This document shows, piece by piece, positions 27,999 through 41,890 of a DNA stretch of 64,000 nucleotides. Source of the stretch: Acinetobacter harbinensis (GTDB lineage Bacteria > Pseudomonadota > Gammaproteobacteria > Pseudomonadales > Moraxellaceae); NCBI RefSeq assembly GCF_000816495.1, contig NZ_JXBK01000001.1, positions 2,422,512 through 2,486,511 of the forward strand, in the 5' to 3' direction. Both the position numbers and the translations under genes were made by a program. Within the stretch, counting starts at the first letter, position 1, and every line of letters begins with the position of its first letter. The notes beneath the pieces are model-generated. The model was given only the letters and a program-made list of their open reading frames with translations. It did not search any database and had not been told where the DNA came from.

Positions 27999-28031
27999 AT
28001 ATTCATCCTTGAATATTAAAAGAAATTTGAA

Positions 28032-29291
28032 TTAGCCAATATTGGGATAGCGTTTAATCGATAAGCCTTCGGTGTTGATATCAGGAGTATGATTAAGTAC
28101 CAAATCGCTGATTAACTTGCCTGAACCACAAGCCATGGTCCAACCCAAGGTGCCATGTCCGGTGTTTAAGAATAAATTCTTAAAGCGCGTTGCACCAATA
28201 ATTGGCGTACTGTCTGGGGTCATCGGACGTAAACCGGTCCAGAATGACGCCTGCGCCATATCACCACCAGGGAATAAATCCTGCGTGACCATTTGCAAGG
28301 TTGCACGGCGATTCTCATTTAAAGCATGGCTAAAACCACTTAGCTCGGCCATTCCGCCCACACGAATACGCTCATCAAAACGGGTAATGGCAATTTTATA
28401 GGTTTCATCGAGTACGGTGGATTGCGGTGCAAAAGCAGGATCGACAATAGGAATGGTCAGTGAATAGCCTTTCACCGGATAAACCGGTAAATCCAAATGA
28501 AGCGGTTTCAGTAAATCGCGCGAATAGCTACCAAATGCCAACACATAACGGTCTGCGGTTAAGACTTGACCATCCACCACCACACCTTTAATTTCATCGC
28601 CTTCAACCACCAGTTTTTCAACTTTTTGATTGAATTTAAAATCGACACCCAATCCTTTAGCCAAATCAGCTAAGGCATTGGTAAATAAGTAACAATCGCC
28701 TGTTTCATCATTGGGTAAATGCAGACCACCGACCAATTTATCTTGTGCATAGGCCAAGGCCGGTTCAACTTTCGCCAAGTCTTCTTTAAGCAATAATTCG
28801 TAGTCAACACCACATTCTTTCAACACTTGAATGTCGCGCTGTACTGCTTCGAGTTGCGCTTCATTACGAAAAACTTGTAAAGTACCTTTAGCGCGGTTTT
28901 CATAGTGAATACCGGTGTCTTTACGCAGCTCTCTTAAGCAGTCACGGCTATATTCAGCCACGCGTGTCATCCGTTCTTTGTTGATGGCATAACTCTGTGG
29001 ATTACAGTTTTTAAGCATTTGTGCCATCCACTGTAACTGCCACATGCTGCCATCCATATTAATGGCTAAAGGTGCATGGTGTTGGAACATCCATTTGACG
29101 GCTTTAAAGGGAATACCAGGCGCCGCCCAAGGGGTGGAATAACCGGGAGAGATTTGACCTGCATTACCGAAACTGGTTTCTTCTGCTGGACCGGGTTGAC
29201 GGTCTAATACAGTTACGGTTGCTCCTTGCTTCGCGAGGTAATACGCGCTTGCTACGCCAATGACACCACTACCTAAGACAATTACGCGCAT
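28032..29291 (-). CDS. dadA: D-amino acid dehydrogenase small subunit
   Basis: A 419-aa FAD-dependent membrane-associated oxidoreductase that converts D-alanine to pyruvate and ammonia and passes electrons to the respiratory chain. The N-terminal dinucleotide-binding motif [16 protein letters not shown] (about 4-19) is followed by [20 protein letters not shown]. The C-terminal [15 protein letters not shown] is typical. The frame is open six codons upstream. The ATG at 29291 has GAGGG 8 nt before it. The gene is divergent from an Lrp-type regulator. Confidence 0.95.
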
Positions 29292-29429
29292 TTCAAATCC
29301 CTCGAGCACCTTTAGTTTATTTACCTAGTATATTTTTGGTTCAATAGTTTTTTTCACTGTTTTACAGCCTATAATCTAGGCAATTGAATGGATTTATCAT
29401 GAAAAAAATTCAAAAAAAGGAAAATATTG
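29292..29429. promoter_or_regulatory. Divergent dadA / Lrp-regulator promoter region
   Basis: A 138-bp AT-rich intergenic region between dadA and the divergent Lrp-type gene. A TATAAT hexamer at 29370-29375 is a plausible -10 for the regulator. TATACT on the minus strand near 29325 is a plausible -10 for dadA. Lrp-family regulators commonly bind their own divergent promoter, so this is the likely operator. No specific operator repeat could be defined by eye. Confidence 0.5.
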
Positions 29430-29894
29430 ATGCGTAAATTAGACCGTATCGATCATCAGATTTTAGAGATTCTACAAAAGGATGGACGCATTGCCATCAG
29501 TGAGTTGGCATCTCGGGTGAATTTGTCCACCACACCCTGCTCTGAACGGGTCAAACGCTTAGAACGCGATGGCATTATCATGGGCTATTACGCGCGTTTA
29601 AATCCGCAGTTGGTGGACCGAAATTTATTGGTATTTTTAGAAATTAAGTTATCGGCAAAATCCGGTGATGTGTTTGATCAAGTGGCGCGTGATTTGGTGG
29701 AAATTCCCGAAGTTCTAGAGTGTCATTTAATTTCAGGAGAGTTTGATTATTTGGTCAAAGCACGGCTGAAAGAGATGACCGCCTATAGACGCTTATTGGG
29801 CGACTTATTAAAAAAACTGCCATCTTCGGCCTCATCACACAGTTACATTGTGATGGAAGAAGTCAAAGAAACCTTATATTTGGATATCGGCTAA
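29430..29894 (+). CDS. Lrp/AsnC-family transcriptional regulator (DadR-like)
   Basis: A 154-aa regulator with an N-terminal winged helix-turn-helix (DRIDHQILEILQKDGRIAIS and ELASRVNLSTTPCSERVKRL, about 5-45) and a C-terminal RAM ligand-binding domain (about 70-150, including CHLISGEFDYLVKA). In Pseudomonas and E. coli an Lrp-type protein controls dadAX in response to alanine. The divergent position makes the same role likely here. A TTG codon precedes the ATG. The ATG at 29430 is chosen for AAGGA at the right distance. Confidence 0.88.
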   Translation: MRKLDRIDHQILEILQKDGRIAISELASRVNLSTTPCSERVKRLERDGIIMGYYARLNPQLVDRNLLVFLEIKLSAKSGDVFDQVARDLVEIPEVLECHLISGEFDYLVKARLKEMTAYRRLLGDLLKKLPSSASSHSYIVMEEVKETLYLDIG

Positions 29895-29919
29895 GCCCAA
29901 ACATTGAATCTTTAAGCTT

Positions 29920-29948
29920 AAAAAAGGATCCTTCAGATCCTTTTTTTT
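29920..29948. terminator. Bidirectional terminator between the Lrp gene and the HAD phosphatase
   Basis: An 11-bp repeat AAAAAAGGATC/GATCCTTTTTT around a CTTCA loop serves both convergent genes. Confidence 0.85.
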
Positions 29949-29971
29949 ATCATTGTTTAAAGTACAGCTAT

Positions 29972-31500
<1,529 letters not shown>

Positions 31501-31572
31501 GTATATGGGGTTAGCGCCTCAGTCTTGATGGCACTGAGTCATCAAGCATCAGCTCAAACACAGCTAACAAAC

Positions 31573-31610
31573 CTGCCGTTGCTGCTTAAAAAACTTAAGC
31601 ACAGCGGCAG
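31573..31610. repeat. Inverted repeat downstream of thiD
   Basis: CTGCCGTTGCTGCTTAA pairs with TTAAGCACAGCGGCAG with one bulged position, around a 5-nt loop. It lies 73 bp after thiD and has no T run. It may protect the thiD mRNA 3' end or act as an imperfect terminator. Confidence 0.45.
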
Positions 31611-31664
31611 CCATACCGCATAAAAACACACTGCTTTAAAATAAGATTACAGGTGAAGCGGCAT

Positions 31665-31693
31665 AAAAAAAGCCCCAGCATAAGGCTGGAGCT
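31665..31693 (-). terminator. Terminator of the yjdM-like gene
   Basis: AGCCCCAGC/GCTGGAGCT (31671-31693, one mismatch) has a loop of about 5 nt. On the minus strand it is followed by six T residues, 25 bp after the stop codon. Confidence 0.75.
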
Positions 31694-31717
31694 GATTAAA
31701 GCTGAATCAAATTAAAA

Positions 31718-32059
31718 TTAAGCTTTTTTCACAAATTCAGATTTCAATTTCATGGCGCCAAAACCTTCAATTTTACAATCGATATCGTGGCCATCACTTG
31801 AGTCAGGTAATAATCGAATATTTTTTACTTTGGTTCCGACTTTAATTGCGGAAGATGACCCTTTCACTTTTAGCTCTTTAATCAAGGTCACGCTATCGCC
31901 ATCGCTTAAGGCATTGCCGTTAGCATCTTTAATTACTGCAGCTTGTTCCGCTGAGTTTTCACCATCTTTCCACTCATGTGAACATTCTGGGCAAATCAGT
32001 AAATCGCCATCTTGATAGGTATATTCTGAATGACATTTCGGGCAATTGGGTAAAGACAT
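31718..32059 (-). CDS. yjdM: YjdM (PhnA-type) zinc-ribbon protein
   Basis: A 113-aa protein with an N-terminal zinc ribbon [21 protein letters not shown] (in part; cysteines about 6, 9, 24, 27) and a C-terminal SH3-like domain ([39 protein letters not shown]). The family was named PhnA for alkylphosphonate uptake but is not needed for phosphonate use in E. coli, and its function is unknown. The ATG at 32059 is chosen over one four codons earlier because MSLPNCPKC is the conserved start. Confidence 0.88.
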
Positions 32060-32152
32060 AAAAAACCTCAAAAAGTCTACTATAGCATTTTATAAATCAA
32101 TCGCTGAATAAAGGCCTATTTATTTTATGGAATAATGCTTAGTTCGGGATGC

Positions 32153-32509
32153 TCATTCTTGTTCTAACAGCTGTTTCAGCACAAGGGCATGGTTATAATC
32201 TGCACTTTTAGTGGCGGTAATGAAAGTCACTTTTTCCTGTTGTGCCAACTGACGGATTTCCTCAAGTTGCTTAGCTTGCGCATTTAAACTCAGTTCCGCT
32301 GTGTAGCGCTGCTGAAACTCAAGCCAACGCTGTGGATCATGTGCATACCATTTTCTTAATTCTGCGGATGGACTGATCTCTTTCGGCCATAGATCAATTT
32401 TTGCCTCTTGCTTTTTAATGCCTCGCGGCCACAGCCGGTCCACCAAAATACGCTTGCCATCTGAAGCCAACACTTCAGCATAGGCTCGTTTGATTTGGAT
32501 CTGCATCAT
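32153..32509 (-). CDS. DUF488-family protein (YeaO-like)
   Basis: A 118-aa protein with the family signature ILVDRLWPRGIKKQEAKIDL (about 21-40), EISPSAELRKWYAHD and VTFITATKSADYNHA. The function is unknown. The fold is small alpha/beta, with conserved Arg, Trp and Asp residues that suggest a binding pocket. GGAGG lies 6-9 nt before two adjacent ATG codons, and either could be used. Confidence 0.82.
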   Translation of the reverse strand: MMQIQIKRAYAEVLASDGKRILVDRLWPRGIKKQEAKIDLWPKEISPSAELRKWYAHDPQRWLEFQQRYTAELSLNAQAKQLEEIRQLAQQEKVTFITATKSADYNHALVLKQLLEQE

Positions 32510-32663
32510 AGCTCACCTCCACGAATTTTCAGCATTTCGCACTAACGCTATCTGCGCGTATCGTATGCTATATCCCTAAACACGTTAATGATTCTAAACT
32601 AATGACTTGCTACGGTTTAAATAAAAAATATGCTGCTGATACGCGTTAATTGCTATGGATTCA

Positions 32664-32685
32664 GCTTAGTCAGATTATACTAAGC
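32664..32685. repeat. Inverted repeat after the AI-2E/GAF gene
   Basis: GCTTAGT/ACTAAGC with an 8-nt loop, three bases beyond the stop codon of the AI-2E/GAF gene. No T run follows, so terminator activity is uncertain. Confidence 0.4.
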
Positions 32686-32688
32686 CAC

Positions 32689-35088
32689 TCAATCATCTTT
32701 CGCTTCTGCTTTGTGTAATTTAGCAATTTCTTCCAACTTTTGTCTGTGGACTTTGTCATCACTTAAGGTTTCAATTAAGTCGGCGGCCAACTCATTTAAC
32801 AAGACCAAATCATCTTCACTGACATGGCGCACCTGTTTGTCTAAAATACACAAACTGCCCAAGACTAAGCCTTGTTTACTGCGCAACGGCACGCCGGCAT
32901 AAAATTTAATTTTATGTCGTTTTAATTCTCGATTGTGATTAAAACGCGGATCACGCTCGATATCCTCAATAATCAAAGCTTCATTTTGATAGACCAAATG
33001 AGTACAGATAGAGTCTTCACGCGGAATTTTCGCTTCAATTGGATTTTGATTTTCAGCCGCCAATGGACTGGCCGGCGTATTAACCCAAGCGGCATCCACC
33101 AAGGAGATTTGTGCATAATCGACATTAAAGGCTTGGCAGGCTTCTTCAATATATTGCTGATAAATCGGTAGGCTCTCTGGCGCCAGTAAATGTAACTCAT
33201 GCAAAGCCGCTAAACGTGCTGGTTCATTTTCTGCCATCAGTTCACGCGCAGGATTCTGCCCCTGTTGTAGCATAAGAGCATCAATACTGAGCATCAATTC
33301 ATTGACAGTAGACACCACCGCATCGGGCTGAAAACGCTGCTGAATTTTATCGCGTAGCACATCACTGGTATTGCCCCATGTGGCAAAAATAATTTTTAGA
33401 TGCGGCAACTGCGCACGAATACGATGATTCAGTAGACGAATCTGTGCCAACGGCTGCGGATGAAACATTGAAATACAGATGATTTCGGCGCTTTGCGGTA
33501 AAGAATCGAGCACGTTACTTTTGCTTTGAATCAGCACCTCGTTGTAACTTTTGGCAGCAATTTTTCTTAAATTTAAACCATGTGCCACCATGGATGCGGT
33601 CAATACCCCAATTTCCCAGCGCGCCCCTACAGAGATGACTTTAATCGCCTCATCCTTTGCTGAAATGGCATATTTTTTTTGAAAATCATGATTAAATAAC
33701 TTTAAACCTTGATGCATTCTTAAGCGGTGTTCGGCACTGGCTTCAGTACTGTGACCTTCAGAAAATAGACGAATAGCCGGAATGGCCACATCATCATAAA
33801 AACTATTGACCTTACGCACCAACATTTCTTCACTGGGTTTTTTCGGTAATTTTTGTTCGATATATTGCTGCGCCACTTTCAGGGCATCATCAACATCATC
33901 TGCCACCAAACGCTGATAAAAGCGCTCGGGTGGAGTAAGCACGGGTTCACTGCCAATCAAAATTTTAATAAAACTCAAAGCCGGAATGTAATTGGCCAAC
34001 ACCAATAAACACGCGGTCAGCGGTGTAGAGAGAATCAGCCCCACCGGCCCCCATAGCGTGGTCCAAAAAGTCGCGGCAATAATAATGGCCAAGGTCGATA
34101 AACCGGTACTTTCACCATATAACCACGGTTCAATAATATTATTACTGATCAGTTCGAGCAGTAAAATTAGCCCCATACTCCACAACACCATATTCCAACC
34201 GGGATCGACCGCAAAGGCCAAGGTCAGCGGAAATAATGCCGAAATCATCGGTCCGACATAGGGTACAAAACGCATGACGATGGCGACCATACCCCACATC
34301 AGCGCAGCCGGTACACCAATGAGCCATAAGCCCAGCGCCATCGGAATACCATAGGTGACATTCACCAACAACTGCATCCGCAAATAGGTACCTATTCGAT
34401 CCGCGGCTTCATCTAAAGCGTCGGTACCAACATTTAAATTGCCTCCGAGCAACTTCAGCAAACGGTCATGCAAGTCTTTTCGACTCAGCAGAATCAGCAC
34501 CACAAATAAAAAAACAATCCCCACCGTGACCAACGGACTCAAAATGGTGATGCCCCACTGCTTGGCTGTTTCAGTTGCACTGGGCGATTTTCCCACCACC
34601 TCAACCTGTGTGACATTAGCCTTGGCTGGCATTGGCGCAAGATCACGCATCGAGTTTTCTACCGTGTCGATGGTGCTGATTGCACCATCCCAAACGCTTG
34701 GGCCTTTGGTCAGATTTTTAACTGAATCTAGTTTGTGTTTGATGGTGTCCTGATACTGCGGCAACTCCTGACTTAAGCTACCTAATTGATAGCCCAAATA
34801 GGTGGCTGCACCGCCCAATAGGCTTAAGGTAAATAGCACGACCAAGGCAATGGAAGGCAATTGCGGTAAACCCCATTTTTTTAAGCGTGACACCAACGGT
34901 TCAAGTAAAAAAGCCAGCAACACCGACAGTGCCAAAGGAATTAAAATATCTTGACCAAAATACAGCGCTAAAATAATTACGGTGGCAATAACAAAGCCTG
35001 CCATCATGCGTAACAGCTGCAAAGTATCGGATTTTGGCTTGACGTGTGCAGCTGAAAATTCTGAATGCGGTCGTTTTTCATTCTTCAC
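32689..35088 (-). CDS. AI-2E/PerM-type membrane protein fused to a cytoplasmic GAF domain
   Basis: At 799 aa this is about twice the usual AI-2E transporter family length (about 350). Residues 25-375 are a PerM/AI-2E exporter-like domain with about 8 membrane helices (ILIPLALSVLLAFLLEPLVS, VPYVGPMISALFPL, GPVGLILSTPLTACLLVL). Residues about 460-600 form an alpha/beta domain (ISVGARWEIGVLTASMVAHG, EIICISMFHP) resembling a B12-binding-type Rossmann fold without an obvious DXHXXG motif. Residues about 625-785 are a GAF domain (EDSICTHLVYQNEALIIED, FYAGVPLRSKQGLVLGSLCI). It looks like a sensor-regulated transporter. The start is GTG with AAGG before it. The substrate is unknown. Confidence 0.82.
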   Translation of the reverse strand: MKNEKRPHSEFSAAHVKPKSDTLQLLRMMAGFVIATVIILALYFGQDILIPLALSVLLAFLLEPLVSRLKKWGLPQLPSIALVVLFTLSLLGGAATYLGYQLGSLSQELPQYQDTIKHKLDSVKNLTKGPSVWDGAISTIDTVENSMRDLAPMPAKANVTQVEVVGKSPSATETAKQWGITILSPLVTVGIVFLFVVLILLSRKDLHDRLLKLLGGNLNVGTDALDEAADRIGTYLRMQLLVNVTYGIPMALGLWLIGVPAALMWGMVAIVMRFVPYVGPMISALFPLTLAFAVDPGWNMVLWSMGLILLLELISNNIIEPWLYGESTGLSTLAIIIAATFWTTLWGPVGLILSTPLTACLLVLANYIPALSFIKILIGSEPVLTPPERFYQRLVADDVDDALKVAQQYIEQKLPKKPSEEMLVRKVNSFYDDVAIPAIRLFSEGHSTEASAEHRLRMHQGLKLFNHDFQKKYAISAKDEAIKVISVGARWEIGVLTASMVAHGLNLRKIAAKSYNEVLIQSKSNVLDSLPQSAEIICISMFHPQPLAQIRLLNHRIRAQLPHLKIIFATWGNTSDVLRDKIQQRFQPDAVVSTVNELMLSIDALMLQQGQNPARELMAENEPARLAALHELHLLAPESLPIYQQYIEEACQAFNVDYAQISLVDAAWVNTPASPLAAENQNPIEAKIPREDSICTHLVYQNEALIIEDIERDPRFNHNRELKRHKIKFYAGVPLRSKQGLVLGSLCILDKQVRHVSEDDLVLLNELAADLIETLSDDKVHRQKLEEIAKLHKAEAKDD

Positions 35089-35493
35089 GTTAAAGGCCTT
35101 CTTGTTTTTATCTCTCTGTGTATATTTAAAATTTTAAGCGACAAAACTCTACAGCCTTAATGTAAATACCATCCTTTTTTAGTTCATCGTGTTGACCGTA
35201 CTGATCTATTTTTAGAGGCTGCTTTTAAGCAAGACTTTTTAAAATATCTAGAAAATAATGATGCCTTTTTAATGATGCTTTATTTATGCCAAATATATTT
35301 CAAGCTATTGAGGTTAAAAACAGATGATCAGGCTATTTGCTAAGCACTTTACCGCTCATCCCCAATTCATTTACCCAATAGATAAACCCCCAAGCGCTTA
35401 CACGTTTGGGGGTTATTGAAGTCAGCACGCACTGCGTTAATTTAATAGTCAGCCCAGTGCATTACAGCACATCTTAAACGGATAGCACAAACC
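35089..35493. other. Intergenic region between rraB and the AI-2E/GAF gene
   Basis: About 400 bp. The terminator at 35385 is the main structure. An open stretch at 35161-35343 (plus strand, 60 codons) has no start codon or ribosome binding site near its left end and may be decayed coding sequence. Nothing else is recognised. Confidence 0.45.
35385..35414 (-). terminator. rraB terminator
   Basis: A 12-bp stem AACCCCCAAGCG/CGTTTGGGGGTT with a 6-nt loop lies 79 bp after the rraB stop. It is followed on the minus strand by TTTATC. The U tract is short but the stem is very stable. Confidence 0.6.
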
Positions 35494-35877
35494 TTATGAG
35501 GTTTGAATCTCATCGTCTAAGTCTTCATCATCGTAAACATAGGCCATGCAGCCCCAACCATCATATTCACCGCTGTGTTGTTCAGCAATTTTAGTAAACC
35601 ATTCTTCAAGGTCGACGATGTCTGAATATTCAGGTTCCATATACACATAAACCGTGATAATCCACTCTGAAGTATCGCTTTCTTCATCTTCAAACAGGCT
35701 GATTTTTTGTTCTTCTTTGAGCAAATAAAGCGCACATTTTTCAGCTAATTCTTGGCTTTGAAAGGCAATTGAATACTCAATTTCATGCGCTTCAATTAAA
35801 TCATCGCCATCTTCAGCCATTTGCCAAAGTACATTACCGTTTTCATCATCAGGAAATTTATCAAAATCGCGGCTCAT
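35494..35877 (-). CDS. rraB: Ribonuclease E inhibitor RraB family protein
   Basis: A very acidic 127-aa protein. RraB binds RNase E and limits its activity on some mRNAs. The FPDDENGNVLWQMAEDGDDL opening (about 7-26), IEYSIAFQSQELAEKCALYL and the C-terminal EYDGWGCMAYVYDDE are typical of the family. AAGGA precedes the ATG. It stands alone, with a hairpin terminator downstream. Confidence 0.87.
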   Translation of the reverse strand: MSRDFDKFPDDENGNVLWQMAEDGDDLIEAHEIEYSIAFQSQELAEKCALYLLKEEQKISLFEDEESDTSEWIITVYVYMEPEYSDIVDLEEWFTKIAEQHSGEYDGWGCMAYVYDDEDLDDEIQTS

Positions 35878-36083
35878 GGAGTATTCCTTATCATCATTTT
35901 AGGCTTCACTATTGTACGCAGATTAGCGCGGCTTTGTTTTAATTTACAGACGATTTACCCAGACCGGCCGCTTTTTGTGCTTTTGAGCGAACACAGACCA
36001 TGTAAAGGTCATGTTTGAGCTATCATCTTGCTAAATGCATCGTTACTACATTTAAGCCAACTTTAAAAGTATATCCTTCAAAA

Positions 36084-36785
36084 TTAGTGCTTCTTGCTCA
36101 TCTCTGAGAGCAAATCCAATTGAATTTCCTGCATCTCCGCCAAGCGTTGCCATTGATGCGATAACAGATGATCTAATTTGTCATGTAAATGTCGAATTTC
36201 CAGTTCAGCTTTTAAATTAATTTGATAATCATTTTGTGAGCGTAAACGGTCTTTGGCTTCTTGTCGGTTTTGGCTCATCATAATCACCGGCGCTTGGATG
36301 GCGGCCAAACAGGACAAAACCAAATTGAGTAAAATAAACGGATAAGGGTCGGCAGGACGTGCCACCAATAACGTGGTGTTAAGCACAATCCAAATCACCA
36401 AAAAAATGGCAAAACAAATCAGAAAGGGCCAACTGCCACCAAAAGTGGCAATTTTATCAGCCAAGCGTTCGCCAAAAGACCACTGCTGCTCTAACTCATC
36501 TTCGGTATTTTTGGTGATTAATTCTTGCTGCTGCATACTGCGAATTACTTCCAATTCCAGTGCAGTCACTTCCCCCTTTTCCGACTTTAATAAAGAATGC
36601 ACATATTGAACACGGTACAGGGTTAAATCGGCATGACAAATATAGCTGTCTGTCGACCACTGCGGAAAATCTTGTAAAATTTCTTGATTGATCGCGTCGC
36701 GTATCACACCGCGCGGGGTCAGTTTTTGTAGCGGAAATTTTTTACCACAGACAGCGCAGGCATGACATTCATTTTTTTCGTGCAT
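36084..36785 (-). CDS. DUF1003-family membrane protein
   Basis: The 233-aa protein starts with a zinc-ribbon-like pair CHACAVCGKKF (about 8-18). Its DUF1003 core (about 100-200) has two membrane helices: FLICFAIFLVIWIVLNTTLL and YPFILLNLVLSCLAAIQAPV. After the second come the conserved MMSQNRQEAKDRLRSQNDYQ and a cytoplasmic coiled segment. The function is unknown. AGGGGAA precedes the ATG. It is separated from its neighbours by about 200 bp on one side and 64 bp on the other. Confidence 0.85.
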   Translation of the reverse strand: MHEKNECHACAVCGKKFPLQKLTPRGVIRDAINQEILQDFPQWSTDSYICHADLTLYRVQYVHSLLKSEKGEVTALELEVIRSMQQQELITKNTEDELEQQWSFGERLADKIATFGGSWPFLICFAIFLVIWIVLNTTLLVARPADPYPFILLNLVLSCLAAIQAPVIMMSQNRQEAKDRLRSQNDYQINLKAELEIRHLHDKLDHLLSHQWQRLAEMQEIQLDLLSEMSKKH

Positions 36786-36849
36786 GAGGTTCCCCTTTAT
36801 TGGCCTATTTAGCGCGTTTTACTCAATTATTTATATGTCGAGGTGTGGC

Positions 36850-37098
36850 TTAACTTTTTTCTATCCAGTAAAGCACGATAAGCGGAATTAAATTAAAGAA
36901 AATAATCATGATTTTATACAGCGTCAGCGCTGCGTAATGAAGGGTATCAAAACTTTCATCACTGAGCTTAAAGCATTTACGCTGTAGGCGATTGATTGCC
37001 TCTCACGCGTAAATCAAACCCCAGAACCAGAGCAATAAAACGGTAATATTTAGGATAAGCGCATAAAGAAGAAAGTGAGTAATAACGGTGATATTCAT
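36850..37098 (-). pseudogene. Small two-helix membrane protein (DUF6868-like), interrupted by one TGA
   Basis: From the ATG at 37098 the frame reads MNITVITHFLLYALILNITV then LLLWFWGLIYA, and stops at TGA (37003-37005). Without this stop it continues in the same frame for 50 codons (EAINRLQRKCFKLSDES, then IMIIFFNLIPLIVLYWIE) to TAA at 36850. Total length, two hydrophobic halves and the central RLQRKCFKLSDE resemble a small DUF6868-type membrane protein as I remember the family. The stop falls where relatives have Arg, so a CGA to TGA change is likely. No frameshift is needed, so the decay is recent or the stop is a sequencing error. Confidence 0.6.
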
Positions 37099-37553
37099 AT
37101 TTTTATAGGCTATATGTTTTGTTTATTTTAGCCTTATTTTTATACTATCAAGAATTTTTTAAGGGGTGAGGGAAAACATATTTTGTTTACTTCAACAACC
37201 ATGACTGGATAAGTCATAACTCTGTGCCTATAAATTTGTAATCTATAGCGTCCTAAGCCGAATCGAGACCTTGTGGGCGAGTACTACACTCACGTTGTAC
37301 GCAACTGGTAGCATCTACTCTCTTCGATCCCCATCACACCCTTGAGATATAATTTAACAAGATCACCTCGGAATTAATTCCCGAAGATTCGCTATTTTTT
37401 GATTATTTTGGCATTTTTTATCGCATAAAATAAAAATAACCGAATTATTTACTATTAAGGTTAAAATAGTGATTTTTTATTGCGAAAATAAGATATTTAT
37501 TGATAATTTTGTTCACTTAACCTGTAGATTTCTGGAATAAAAAAAACTGAGCA
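37099..37553. other. Intergenic region with several short inverted repeats
   Basis: About 450 bp between the broken small gene and the zinc-ribbon gene. The right half (37390-37540) is extremely AT-rich. The middle (37250-37390) is less so and contains consecutive short hairpins: GAGT/ACTC, GTTG/CAAC and GTAG/CTAC inside ATCGA/TCGAT, plus TCGG/CCGA around AATTAATT. I recognise no known RNA family. No ORF is supported. Confidence 0.4.
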
Positions 37554-37581
37554 AAAAGCCCTATCGGGTAATAGGGCTTTT
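37554..37581 (-). terminator. Terminator of the zinc-ribbon gene
   Basis: An 11-bp perfect stem AAAAGCCCTAT/ATAGGGCTTTT with a 6-nt loop, 45 bp after the stop codon. The A/T ends allow use in either direction. Confidence 0.85.
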
Positions 37582-37625
37582 GTTTAAAACAGGATAGCTG
37601 TTTTATGAACGTTGCTTAGGCAAAT

Positions 37626-37760
37626 TTATTTTTTAAATTGATTGCCATGGCATTTGGTACACGGGGGTAAACGATCTGTACCAATTTCTAAGTAAGCGCG
37701 GTATCCGCACTGAATACAAAAATAGAAGCCTGTTCCGGGTTTTTCGCCAGCAGTAACCAT
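37626..37760 (-). CDS. Small zinc-ribbon protein (44 aa)
   Basis: This short ORF encodes MVTAGEKPGTGFYFCIQCGY followed by a basic-polar linker and LPPCTKCHGNQFKK. The cysteine pairs C15-x2-C18 and C34-x2-C37 should bind one zinc as a rubredoxin-like ribbon. GEKPGTG plus LPPCxKC is a pattern I associate with small 'zinc ribbon-containing proteins' in many gammaproteobacteria. GGAGAACAAAA before the ATG and a strong terminator after the stop support a real gene. The function is unknown. Confidence 0.75.
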   Translation of the reverse strand: MVTAGEKPGTGFYFCIQCGYRAYLEIGTDRLPPCTKCHGNQFKK

Positions 37761-37947
37761 TTTTGTTCTCCATGGGTTTTAGAAATGGTAGATTTAGTAT
37801 ATAACCCTAATGTGATGATTGTCTATTGTCCATTTCGATAAATGATAGTGGCGTTTGGGCGAAGGAATTTTATTGTAAATAAAAACTTTATATTCTTTCA
37901 GAATACTCTATTAACTTTTCCAAAGCGACTTCACTTTCAATATAACA

Positions 37948-38293
37948 TTAATAAATTCCACAAAATTTATGTACTGCAACACGATCAATTGCCGTTGAAT
38001 AATCAGTTAATTTTTTCATATCTGAGATGCCTATAATATTTACAAGTATAGAATAATCAAATTTAAAGCTACATTTTTTGATAGTTTTAGCATCAAAGAA
38101 AATTCGAACTTTATTTGAAGAATTTTCTATTTGATAACAACGCATTTTATCTGTGTTATCCACCTGATAAGATTTTTTAATGCGTCCTATCAGACTTTCT
38201 AAATATTTTGATGCATTCTGACCATTTAACACTCTGTTATCCAAAGAAACCTTTATAGGGCACAATACTATAAAAAATCATATAAACCTTCAT
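37948..38293 (-). pseudogene. Frameshifted ORF overlapping the HNH gene by ATGA
   Basis: An ATG at 38293 overlaps the TGA stop of the HNH gene by four bases, the usual sign of translational coupling. That frame reads MKVYMIFYSIVPYKGFFG and ends at TAA (38237-38239). The +1 frame is open from 38265 to 37948 and encodes about 105 residues (NGQNASKYLESLIGRIKKSY, NKVRIFFDAKTIKKCSFKFD). The simplest reading is one gene of about 115 codons broken by a single-base change near 38240-38265. Base composition matches the HNH gene. I do not recognise the product. A programmed +1 shift at CCC-T is possible but unsupported. Confidence 0.45.
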
Positions 38294-39189
38294 CTTATAC
38301 TTCCTATTATTTTTTTTAGCTCTTCAATTTTTAACAATGGTTTTCCTTTATGCAACATTCTATGACAGTTTGAACAAACAATTGCTAAATCATCTAATTT
38401 TGTCTCAACAAGACCATCCGCCTGATTTAATGGAATTAAATGATGAACTTCACAGAAATTATTACCTATCTCACCGTAAATAGCTTTAAAATTAAAAGTA
38501 CAAACTTCACATTCTAACTTTCCAGCTTGAGCTAATATTGTTTTCTTTTTCTGTTGAACTATTTCCCTGTTTCTTTCTCTAACTAAATGTGTTCTAAATC
38601 TTGGATTCCCTTCTACACCTATTATCTCATGATCAACATCAACCATATCCTCAAAGACTGTTTTATTACTAATATATTTTTGTACTCTTTGGACAAGATT
38701 CTGTGCCTCAGGTGATTGCGCATACCAAACGTTACTTTGCCCTATACCTCCTTTGACAGCTCTAGGAATTAATAAGTTTCTTTTCTGAAGAGGAACAAGA
38801 TATGCATCTGAAAAATTAGCCTCTATAAGATAAAAATCTAGTTTATTTTTTTCATGAAAACCAGATGCTTTTAATAATTTTTGAGGCTCTTTATAAACTT
38901 TTGCATTTTCATACCATCCAATAACTACCGTCCCACCACTATCAGGCCCTGCTGTCCATACGACAGTTACCTCATCTACAAACTCATCATCTTTATTAGC
39001 TCCTAATTTCTGGATATCAATTTTTCCGGAGGAACGGACATATCCAAATACTTTTTCATTTAGGTTAGTAAAATTACATACTTCATGACCAATTGAATGA
39101 TCATTGAAAGCACCCCCTCTACTCAAAATATCTCCATCTATTCCATTATAACTTTCCATCCAACCAACATTACAAAATAATATTGTCAT
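38290..39189 (-). CDS. HNH endonuclease with N-terminal putative sensor domain
   Basis: The 299-aa protein ends in a zinc-type HNH nuclease domain (about 225-295): CEVC, then CEVHHLIPLNQ (metal and catalytic His), and CSNCHRMLH with the Asn and final His. The N-terminal 150 residues contain GGAFNDHSIGHEVCNF, VVWTAGPDSGGTVVIGWYEN and AKVY. This pattern is reminiscent of EVE/PUA-like base-sensing domains, but I cannot confirm the family. The layout suggests a modification-dependent (type IV-like) restriction enzyme. The gene is much more AT-rich than its neighbours, starts 36 bp after the acnD terminator and overlaps a second, frameshifted ORF. Confidence 0.8.
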   Translation of the reverse strand: MTILFCNVGWMESYNGIDGDILSRGGAFNDHSIGHEVCNFTNLNEKVFGYVRSSGKIDIQKLGANKDDEFVDEVTVVWTAGPDSGGTVVIGWYENAKVYKEPQKLLKASGFHEKNKLDFYLIEANFSDAYLVPLQKRNLLIPRAVKGGIGQSNVWYAQSPEAQNLVQRVQKYISNKTVFEDMVDVDHEIIGVEGNPRFRTHLVRERNREIVQQKKKTILAQAGKLECEVCTFNFKAIYGEIGNNFCEVHHLIPLNQADGLVETKLDDLAIVCSNCHRMLHKGKPLLKIEELKKIIGSIR

Positions 39190-39220
39190 AACTAATCCTT
39201 AATTTTATTTTTCAATATAT

Positions 39221-39245
39221 AAAAAACCCCACTTCACAGTAGGGT
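39221..39245 (-). terminator. acnD terminator
   Basis: On the minus strand ACCCTACT/AGTGGGGT forms an 8-bp stem (with one U-G pair) around a 4-nt loop, followed by six T residues. It is 38 bp beyond the acnD stop. Confidence 0.82.
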
Positions 39246-39283
39246 CTTTTTATAACAATATCAATTACTTTTAAAACAAAATA

Positions 39284-41890
39284 TTAAGCCATATTCCCTT
39301 CTAAAAAGTCCTGTGCAAAACGCTGTAATACACCGCCTGCTTCATACACATGCACTTCTTCTTCAGTATCTAAACGGCAAGTCACTGCAACTTCAACCAC
39401 TTGATTTTTACCGTCTTCAGTCGCGCGCTCAATCACCAAAGTTAAGTCAGAACGTGGCGCAATATTACCCAGTACGCTATATAGCTCTGTACCATCTAGC
39501 GCTAACGTTTTACGGTCAATACCGGCTTTAAACTCAAGCGGTAATACCCCCATACCCACCAAATTGGTGCGGTGAATCCGCTCAAACCCTTCTGCCACAA
39601 TCACTTCTACACCCGCAAGACGAACACCTTTAGCAGCCCAATCACGGCTTGAACCCTGACCATAATCTTTACCGGCAATAATAATCAGCGGTTGTTTACG
39701 GTTCATATACACTTCAATGGCTTCCCACATCCGCATTACTTCGCCTTCTGGTTCCACCCGTGCTTTTGAGCCTTGTTTTATGCTGCCATCGGAACGGCGC
39801 ACCATTTCATTAAACAATTTCGGATTGGCAAAAGTGGCGCGCTGCGTAGTCAGATGGTCACCGCGATGAGTCGCATACGAGTTAAAGTCTTCTTCTGGCA
39901 CGCCCATTTTGGCCAAATATTCACCCGAGGCACTGTCTAACACAATCGCATTGGAAGGCGATAAATGATCGGTGGTGATGTTGTCACCTAAAATGGCCAA
40001 TGGACGCATATTGCTTAAAGTGCGCGGTGCAGCCAATGCGCCTTCCCAATATGGCGGACGACGAATGTAGGTACTTTGCGGACGCCAATCATACAGTGGA
40101 CTTGCTGCTTTAACCGCCTCGCCCAAATCAAACATTGGAATATAAACTTTACGGAACTGTTCCGGCTTAACCGATTTGGCCACCAAAGCATCAATTTCTG
40201 CATCACTTGGCCAAATGTCTTTTAGGTAAATCGGTTGACCGTTTTGATCATTGCCTAAACTGTCCTTTTCAATATCAAAACGAATGGTTCCGGCAATGGC
40301 ATAGGCCACAACCAACGGTGGTGATGCCAAAAAGGCTTGTTTGGCATAAGGATGAATACGACCGTCAAAATTACGATTGCCCGAAAGCACTGCGGTTGAG
40401 TACAAATCACGTTCGATAATTTCTTGCTGAATTTGTGGATCAAGCGCGCCCGACATCCCATTACAGGTGGTGCAAGCATAGGCCACAATCCCAAAGCCCA
40501 TTTTTTCTAAATCGTGCAACACGCCCGCTTCTTCTAAATATAACGCCGCCGCTTTAGAACCGGGTGCAAAAGAGGATTTTACCCAAGGTTTACGCGTTAA
40601 GCCCAACTCATTGGCTTTACGTGCCAGTAAACCTGCCGCCACCGTATTACGGGGGTTGGAAGTATTGGTACATGAGGTAATCGCAGCAATAATAATGGCA
40701 CCATCGGGCATTAAACCATCGGTACGGTGTTCCACCACGCCAGCAATACCTTTGGCTTTTAAATCGGCTGTTGATACACGCGCATGTGGATTAGAGGGTC
40801 CGGCAATATTGCGTGTTACTGTGGATAAATCAAAACGTAAGATACGGGGATACTGCGCCTCTTTCATCTGAGCGCCCCACAAGCCAATTTCTTTGGCGTA
40901 GGTTTCAACTAATTTAATTTGTTCAGCTTCACGGCCGGTTAAGGTCAAATAATCCAGCGTATTTTGGTCGATATAGAACATGGCTGCGGTTGCGCCATAT
41001 TCTGGGGTCATATTGGAAATTGTGGCGCGATCGCCCACCGACATGCTGTCTGCACCTTCGCCAAAGAACTCTAAATAAGCGCCCACTACGCGCTCTTGAC
41101 GTAAAAATTCTGTCAAAGCCAAGACAATATCGGTGGCGGTAATACCGGCTTGACGCTGCCCGACAAATTCAACCCCAATAATATCTGGTACACGCATCCA
41201 AGAAGCACGACCGAGCATGACATTTTCTGCTTCTAAACCGCCCACTCCAATCGAGATCACGCCCAACGCATCGGTATGCGGCGTATGTGAGTCCGTACCG
41301 ACGCAGGTATCAGGGAATGCCACACCGTCGCGATTTTGAATCACAGGTGACATTTTTTCTAAGTTAATTTGATGCATGATGCCGTTACCGGCAGGAATCA
41401 CATCAACATTTTCAAAGGCCGTTTTGGTCCATTCAATAAAATGAAAACGATCTTCATTACGACGATCTTCAATGGCACGGTTTTTCGCAAACGCGTCTGG
41501 ATCGGAACCACCAAATTCCACCGCCAAAGAATGATCGACAATCAACTGGGTCGGAACCACGGGATTAACTTTAGATGGATCGCCACCTTGTTCCGCAATC
41601 GCATCACGCAAACCGGCCAAATCCACCAAAGCCGTTTGACCCAAAATATCATGGCAGACCACGCGTGCTGGATACCACGGAAAGTCCTGTTCTTGTTTAT
41701 GCTTAATCAGCTGCGTTAAAGACTGGGTTAAAATGGCCGGATCGCAGCGGCGCACCAATTGTTCAGCCAGCACTTTTGAGGTATAGGGAAGTTTGTTGTA
41801 CGCACCTGACTGAATATCTTCTACGGCTTGGCGCACGTCAAAATATTCAAGCTGGGTATTTTGCAGGGGTTTACGGTAGTTGTTATTCAT
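39284..41890 (-). CDS. acnD: AcnD-type Fe/S aconitate / 2-methylisocitrate dehydratase
   Basis: An 868-aa aconitase-family enzyme. The [4Fe-4S] cysteines lie in TSCTNTSNP and CTTCNGMSG, and the substrate and swivel domain signatures GTDSHTPHTDALGVI, MTPEYGA, YGQGSSRDWAAKG and GDNITTDHLSP are present. The opening (RKPLQNTQLEYFDVRQAVE, LVRRCDPA) and the length match AcnD, which with PrpF dehydrates 2-methylcitrate in propionate breakdown. No prp gene is adjacent, so it could instead serve as a housekeeping aconitase. AcnA is the main alternative name. Confidence 0.85.
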   Translation of the reverse strand: MNNNYRKPLQNTQLEYFDVRQAVEDIQSGAYNKLPYTSKVLAEQLVRRCDPAILTQSLTQLIKHKQEQDFPWYPARVVCHDILGQTALVDLAGLRDAIAEQGGDPSKVNPVVPTQLIVDHSLAVEFGGSDPDAFAKNRAIEDRRNEDRFHFIEWTKTAFENVDVIPAGNGIMHQINLEKMSPVIQNRDGVAFPDTCVGTDSHTPHTDALGVISIGVGGLEAENVMLGRASWMRVPDIIGVEFVGQRQAGITATDIVLALTEFLRQERVVGAYLEFFGEGADSMSVGDRATISNMTPEYGATAAMFYIDQNTLDYLTLTGREAEQIKLVETYAKEIGLWGAQMKEAQYPRILRFDLSTVTRNIAGPSNPHARVSTADLKAKGIAGVVEHRTDGLMPDGAIIIAAITSCTNTSNPRNTVAAGLLARKANELGLTRKPWVKSSFAPGSKAAALYLEEAGVLHDLEKMGFGIVAYACTTCNGMSGALDPQIQQEIIERDLYSTAVLSGNRNFDGRIHPYAKQAFLASPPLVVAYAIAGTIRFDIEKDSLGNDQNGQPIYLKDIWPSDAEIDALVAKSVKPEQFRKVYIPMFDLGEAVKAASPLYDWRPQSTYIRRPPYWEGALAAPRTLSNMRPLAILGDNITTDHLSPSNAIVLDSASGEYLAKMGVPEEDFNSYATHRGDHLTTQRATFANPKLFNEMVRRSDGSIKQGSKARVEPEGEVMRMWEAIEVYMNRKQPLIIIAGKDYGQGSSRDWAAKGVRLAGVEVIVAEGFERIHRTNLVGMGVLPLEFKAGIDRKTLALDGTELYSVLGNIAPRSDLTLVIERATEDGKNQVVEVAVTCRLDTEEEVHVYEAGGVLQRFAQDFLEGNMA

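Follow-up and report, generated by a model that had tools for sequence, protein, structure and literature searches.

A candidate stand-alone, modification-dependent HNH endonuclease with a predicted PUA-superfamily-like sensor domain downstream of acnD in Acinetobacter harbinensis

The window investigated here, a stretch of 64,000 nucleotides from the 2.9 Mb, 6-contig genome of Acinetobacter harbinensis (G000), contains an HNH endonuclease gene whose product is probably a type IV restriction endonuclease that acts alone, depends on DNA modification and has a PUA-superfamily-like sensor (Table 1). The protein shows a two-domain anatomy with an intact HNH motif, its N-terminal domain is found with different nuclease types and its gene is located at a site holding defence-like genes. 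An earlier note on this DNA had proposed a modification-dependent defence system of two genes, of which the first part is sustained by the predicted sensor-type fold on a McrA-like HNH nuclease, whereas the second gene component is not. In the proposed mechanism, the N-terminal domain would bind DNA containing a modified base, which would probably be flipped into a pocket of the domain, and the C-terminal HNH, with its beta-beta-alpha metal fold and Cys4 zinc site, would cut the bound DNA, presumably in dimeric form, like VcaM4I. With the mark presumed absent from host DNA, modified phage DNA would be restricted without need for a cognate methyltransferase. The protein would in this way act against phages, and the mark would more likely be a cytosine modification than 6mA.

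Table 1. Features of the region downstream of acnD, with coordinates in the window, and nuclease partners of the N-terminal domain in the proteins scanned with Pfam.
Feature	Position	Strand	Basis or members
HNH endonuclease gene	38290-39189	(-)	intact ORF, 299 aa
Predicted N-terminal PUA-superfamily-like sensor domain, residues 1-175	38665-39189	(-)	AlphaFold models, fold matches, family alignments
HNH nuclease domain, residues 227-281	38347-38511	(-)	Pfam PF01844; EcoKMcrA 6ghc; motif residues
105-codon ORF, orphan or decayed gene	37948-38265	(-)	frame differs from the ATGA-started one
acnD terminator hairpin and T-tract, left border of variable site	39210-39260	(-)	folding of 39210-39290
Small conserved Zn-ribbon-like gene, right border of variable site	37626-37760	(-)	44 aa, two CxxC pairs
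acnD (presumed)	39284-41890	(-)	868-aa aconitase-type protein
N-domain + HNH (8)			window, L029, L030, L086, L087, L098, L114, L123
N-domain + NOV_C (15)			L005, L007, L031, L032, L033, L089, L097, L100, L102, L109, L110, L113, L118, L120, L121
N-domain + nothing recognised by Pfam (6)			L088, L105, L111, L112, L122, L124

The gene is under purifying selection, as reflected in a dN of 0.29 and a dS of 1.41, the latter near saturation, in comparison with its orthologue from A. nosocomialis (L029), corresponding to a dN/dS of about 0.2. No methyltransferase was found beside it in the ORF lists covering 28000-41890 of the window, whose translations were read by eye (ORFs of at least 100 aa over 28000-38400 and of at least 50 aa over 36500-41500). 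Equally, none was seen beside the A. nosocomialis orthologue among the ORF translations of L029 3000-10000, again read by eye, nor in the annotated flanks of a homologue on a Pseudoalteromonas plasmid (L086), for which the gene table is incomplete.

The C-terminal half is recognized as an HNH nuclease in several comparisons. Its match to Pfam PF01844 has an E of 5.9e-8, residues 215-285 match the PADLOC model mREase_IV (E 6.5e-9) and EcoKMcrA (6ghc) is the only good match among PDB sequences (E 8.2e-7, residues 219-290 aligned), with a fold alignment of Z 6.8 over residues 195-295. The motif CEVC...EVHH...CSNCHRMLH, comprising the conserved zinc cysteines and the His/Asn motif, is complete in the window protein and retained with small changes in the aligned full-length homologues L029, L030, L098 and L114. 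Window-type HNH domains are also found behind several other N-termini (17 read). A common N-terminal module of the RNPKWHRDEIILALDLYF type precedes such a domain in L035, L039, L041, L043, L046 and L047, and the carriers of this combination are Bacteroidota and one SAR202 MAG.

Family libraries offered no assignment for the N-terminal domain. Residues 1-155 are not covered by any Pfam, NCBIfam, PHROGs or PADLOC model (E<=1), the sole library match starting at residue 156, DUF3825, is at chance level (E 0.16), a profile of the domain found no PDB sequence at E<=10 and no description of it was encountered in the literature searched. AlphaFold predicted the whole protein with a pLDDT of 80.5 and residues 1-184 alone with a pLDDT of 85.8 and a pTM of 0.86. 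In Foldseek, the top match of the whole model is the EVE-HNH enzyme VcaM4I (6yex, E 1.8e-3, prob 0.80), while the domain alone retrieves TgMcrB (6p0f/6p0g) at ranks 1-2 and VcaM4I at rank 3 (E 0.07-0.27), with nothing for the N-domain at E<=0.001 in either case. All 50 matches listed by VIA for the domain alone are YTH, EVE or McrB-N proteins (Z 5.4-7.2), the best being the YTH protein Mmi1 (Z 7.2, rmsd 3.5, 126 aligned), with values of 6.1 for VcaM4I (EVE) and 6.0 for both McrB-N and THYN1. Since each Z is below 8, where the tool warns of possibly just a common arrangement of elements, our fold assignment rests on the agreement among matches and not on one score. Four further entries in these rows, 1wmm, 2hd9, 2ar1 and 2g2x, are presumably of the EVE type, and 2eve is called EVE in passages of PMC7897488 and PMC11037411. 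A search of BFVD gave no row at E<=0.001; its best match is a phage protein labelled RelA/SpoT (E 5.4e-3, prob 0.93), followed at rank 2 by an ASCH protein. SRA and NEco structures do not appear among the matches listed for the domain, which describes an absence from these matches only. Judged from the models, the domain looks like a member of the PUA-superfamily modified-base readers that include YTH, EVE and the N-terminus of McrB. The earlier view of the N-terminus as a base- or ligand-sensing domain thus holds at the level of the predicted fold, and the comparison with EVE, PUA and SRA folds that had been suggested led to PUA/YTH/EVE-like proteins and not to an unrelated fold devoid of any association with defence.

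We have also considered the domain as a member of the EVE family at sequence level, which was rejected. The Pfam EVE model (PF01878) matches neither the window protein at E<=1 nor any of 12 members of the N-domain family at E<=10, in searches where the HMMER filters drop most weak matches, and a PF01878 search of the protein's own genome gave no match anywhere. Profile comparisons revealed no similarity to canonical EVE represented by three sequences (prob 0.2) and none to the EVE-like module of L068, L069, L084 and L104.

The nature of the mark bears on the most serious alternative, in which the N-terminal domain would be a YTH-like 6mA reader and the enzyme an adenine-methylation-dependent restriction enzyme. 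YTH structures lead the VIA list, TgMcrB-N, a 6mA-sensing YTH domain according to parts of PMC7897488, comes first among the Foldseek rows and sections of PMC11037411 announce YTH-HNH fusions as 6mA candidates for future work. However, the YTH and EVE rows differ by just 1-2 Z units. Moreover, both Acinetobacter genomes with the HNH form carry D12-type methyltransferases (PF02086), which are expected from their family to make 6mA, and a general 6mA nuclease would be toxic to its host unless restricted to a certain sequence context. We thus regard this alternative as unlikely. Neither of the two genomes contains a match to PF00145 (C5-cytosine methyltransferase) or PF01555. A PF00145 match is missing in 85 of the 175 genus genomes, the window's included, and among the six with a strong N-domain protein it is missing in G000, G008, G060 and G095 and present in G122 and G143; as such absence is common and two carriers have the enzyme, it provides weak evidence on the mark. 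At this same low strength, a cytosine mark would be more compatible with the host methyltransferases than general 6mA, with no enrichment. Elsewhere in the window genome, a D12 methyltransferase directly follows an AAA/OLD-type ATPase-like gene (L251:145-2337, by eye), and the two possibly constitute a second defence locus.

Residues 1-175, the putative sensor of the proposed modification-dependent endonuclease, define a recurrent and coherent family in alignments of relatives gathered from GTDB contigs, plasmids, phages, IMG/VR and sampled genomes, with near-invariant residues including M11, Y14, G16, E36, N39, F40, G91, W92, Y93, A96 and R137. A Pfam scan of 29 of these proteins assigned an HNH domain to 8 and NOV_C to 15, with no recognised nuclease in 6. 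The scan was confined to these 29 and left aside L004, L099, L103, L104, L106-L108 and L115-L117 (by eye copies or close relatives of scanned proteins), the weak matches L129 and L130, L101, whose frame stops after 15 codons, and the remaining plasmid and phage matches, including the annotation-only L245-L247. The N-domains of the NOV_C relatives are about 28-46% identical to that of the window protein, and NOV_C itself is, we assume, PD-(D/E)XK-like. The 518-aa Acinetobacter protein L005, which has a copy on a viral contig (L104) and no sensible match among PDB sequences (best E 0.3), consists of another N-terminal module followed by the N-domain and NOV_C. In L084, a relative of its first module (37% identity) is fused straight to an HNH of the window type. 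The latter is 37% identical to the HNH of the window protein over 134 columns, and L084 matched only the HNH of 6ghc in a phmmer search of the PDB. Since N-domain and window-type HNH each recur with varied partners, sensor and cutter appear to be exchangeable parts, as is likewise found in known modification-dependent enzymes.

Several further arrangements were observed in the course of this survey. L068, L069 and L084 combine a window-type HNH with a 'TYLYTWxPxRWxW' N-terminal module that corresponds to domain 1 of the three-part L104 and that we take to be a VcaM4I-type EVE; its similarity to canonical EVE is weak in a single profile comparison (prob 25, E 7.5e-4), with a prob of 7 in a second one. 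E-[IV]-K motifs give the C-terminal halves of L105-L108, L088 and L124 the look of PD-(D/E)XK nucleases on visual inspection, and the halves of L105, L088 and L124 match no Pfam family. Fusions of EVE domains to PD-(D/E)XK, HNH, PLDc and GIY-YIG nucleases are described in portions of PMC7641849, and as many of the defence EVE domains mentioned there were found by HHpred only, its census may include the N-domain. A broader proposal, by which the N-domain is a distinct PUA-superfamily sensor family that serves HNH, NOV_C and other nucleases interchangeably and reads a phage DNA modification outside the known SRA, EVE, YTH and NEco sensors, is put forward tentatively and would appear improbable to us at this stage.

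N-domains without a recognised nuclease are encoded on their own in L111:612-1238, L112:2992-3618 and L122:1459-2052, with two of the three coming from viral contigs of IMG/VR, and might possibly be regulators, decoys or parts of split systems. The HNH and NOV_C partners of the domain are DNA-nuclease types and the nearest nuclease of solved structure restricts DNA, both of which speak against an RNA- or tRNA-directed toxin-like nuclease, whose PUA-type domain would read modified RNA and whose HNH would function in abortive infection. Although the existence of stand-alone N-domain proteins and the long-standing link of YTH and EVE domains mostly to modified RNA (parts of PMC7897488) would favour such a protein, we consider it very unlikely.

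The distribution of the putative restriction enzyme is sparse. Its N-domain is detected at E<=0.001 in 7 of 175 Acinetobacter species genomes, six of them with strong matches, and in 6 of 398 sampled genomes of the phylum, the window's own included. Full-length matches within the genus are confined to the window genome and A. nosocomialis (G060), whose orthologue is 61% identical and located at the same chromosomal site, and the homologue on the Pseudoalteromonas plasmid is 54% identical. The latter plasmid encodes an AriA/AriB (PARIS)-like pair 1.7 kb upstream of the HNH homologue (L086:1018-3332). A Ruminococcus phage protein (L245:3965-4942), encoded on the opposite strand between tail genes, is 25% identical over residues 1-282, and a second phage contains a similar match.

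The site shared by the two Acinetobacter species, between acnD and the Zn-ribbon-like gene (37626-39283 in the window; loci L161-L241), is a variable cargo hotspot across the genus. An acnD 3' probe matched 166 of 175 genus genomes, from which 80 loci were fetched down the listing, with omissions (many short contigs, some without stated reason) and stopping short of its end, resulting in 81 loci with the window. Both borders were identified in 73 of them, with matches to the Zn-ribbon marker resting mainly on residues 1-39, and the remaining 8, where one marker is missing, were not counted. The interval spans 173-4312 bp (median 1762, 73 loci) with a mean GC of 0.315 in the 68 intervals above 500 bp. 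A gene that we believe to be DUF4126-like comes next in 47 of the 73 loci, that of the window not being among them. The earlier description of the locus as AT-rich and placed directly after the acnD terminator is confirmed by GC contents of 0.322 for the HNH gene and 0.277 for the 105-codon ORF versus 0.472 for acnD, and by a hairpin with T-tract (-19.8 kcal/mol, z -3.56, 39210-39290 folded), a position for which a simple scan listed no terminator between the two genes. Given the mean composition of the intervals, the AT-richness of the HNH gene is typical of this site. Two of the 73 loci, those of the window and of A. nosocomialis, have a window-type HNH ORF there, and as the orthologues share the site, the gene has either been resident for a long time or entered on two occasions through exchange at the hotspot.

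The remaining cargo is mixed. Pfam matches for 101 cargo ORFs of at least 130 aa, taken from 25 of 48 families listed, include the defence-like PIN (11), AAA_21 (3) and GmrSD_N (2), single matches to AbiTii, AbiJ_NTD4, SIR2_2, a reverse transcriptase and NADAR-DarT1, and other genes such as DDE_Tnp_1 transposases (3), MFS transporters (2), AdeT and dehydrogenases. In PADLOC, 245 families (not proteins) match these ORFs, 25 of which were listed, and 8 of 10 cargo proteins picked by hand, hence non-randomly, have a match at E<=1e-5, with none for the other two; examples are RT-Toprim_I-C (E 2.6e-174), AriAB (2.3e-197) and PDC-M12A/AbiLi. The hotspot thus carries Abi-type RT, PARIS-like, GmrSD-like, SIR2, PIN and unassigned genes. 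The cargo of L161 has neither a Pfam nor a PADLOC match at E<=1e-5 and those of L166 and L210 have none in PADLOC; these are candidates for new defence genes. For the HNH gene, a link to defence hence receives partial support from context, in a site where other defence-like genes are found amid mixed cargo. Hotspots in Acinetobacter are the topic of a previous paper cited in a section of PMC12421847.

The second gene of the system envisaged earlier deserves separate consideration. The stop codon of the HNH gene does overlap a downstream ATG as ATGA, as had been claimed for a translated pair, but the frame started there ends after 18 codons and the long ORF, with a TTG start as listed, is in another frame. 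In 5000 Markov-simulated sequences, a stop-free run of its length arose at a rate of 0.26% when only the same strand was counted and of 0.6% when both strands were; the region had been selected with the ORF already in view. The three codon positions of the ORF have GC contents of 0.34, 0.30 and 0.19. Being longer than expected by chance and with this codon-position trend, the ORF may be a real or former gene, but none of the results links it in function to the HNH gene. Searches with it gave no match in plasmids and phages (E<=1), in IMG/VR viral contigs or, at E<=0.01, in the 273 further genomes of a 274-genome sample of the class. Within the genus, 6 other genomes match at E<=0.1, five at E 0.018-0.089 and only one passing E 0.001, a 61-aa ORF that resembles the middle of the query (37%, E 5.6e-4) in a 3.2-kb locus where no HNH ORF was seen. 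Loci around HNH homologues, among the 156 loci fetched, yielded no alignment better than chance (E at least 0.75), and in A. nosocomialis the HNH gene is followed by what by eye is a terminator-like stretch and no such ORF. We therefore take the ORF for hotspot cargo, either an orphan gene or one that has decayed. As a system component it was rejected, since it accompanies none of the HNH homologues examined, not even the orthologue that A. nosocomialis has at this site, and no conserved adjacent partner was found in the genomes, plasmids, phages and viral contigs searched. A two-gene defence system, whose second component is now out of frame or produced by frameshifting, could draw on the ATGA overlap, the improbable length, the gene-like codon-position trend and the weak similarity to the ORF of another species, yet with a partner missing throughout these searches it must be viewed as highly improbable. 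Finally, the HNH protein could belong to a mobile element, as a homing or free-standing endonuclease with no role in defence. Matches of phage HNH families and the phage relatives might point to this, but it is the reading we find least credible of all, as the PHROG matches begin only at residue 197, the N-domain is shared with NOV_C nucleases and the gene resides at the same chromosomal site in two species.

For the preferred interpretation as a stand-alone modification-dependent enzyme, these results have practical consequences. An unmodelled sensor preceding at least two nuclease types provides a ready set of candidate modification-dependent enzymes, which could help to establish the phage DNA marks that bacteria are able to sense and could serve as reagents in mapping modified bases, the site downstream of acnD is a defined place in Acinetobacter genomes to seek further small defence genes and the out-of-frame partner, on which the apparent new two-gene system was based, can be set aside.

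Among known systems, the protein is closest in build to the EVE-HNH modification-dependent endonucleases VcaM4I, TspA15I and CmeDI (parts of PMC7897488), of which VcaM4I combines a PUA sensor, linker helices and a dimerising HNH. It shares with them a predicted N-terminal PUA-superfamily-like sensor, a linker helix and a C-terminal HNH within about 300 aa, the lack of a methyltransferase seen beside its gene and VcaM4I as top whole-model match, and it differs in its N-domain, which is not related to EVE by the Pfam model or by profile comparison with the three canonical sequences. The nearest solved relative of its HNH domain by sequence is EcoKMcrA, with similarity also in fold, although the matches cover only residues 195 onward and the N-domain finds no NEco structure among the matches listed. 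The fold of the N-domain resembles the YTH-type sensor of McrB from T. gammatolerans, whereas the McrB GTPase of the archaeal protein is not part of the window protein and the N-domain matches no PDB sequence. With the N-domain-NOV_C (DUF3883) nucleases it has the N-terminal domain in common, with an HNH in place of their NOV_C, and its architecture may correspond to that of the YTH-HNH fusions already named in print in sections of PMC11037411, which does not imply membership of the same family. The known element is thus probably an EVE-HNH-like build, and the new one, as judged from the models, a distinct sensor that has no counterpart in the family libraries searched.
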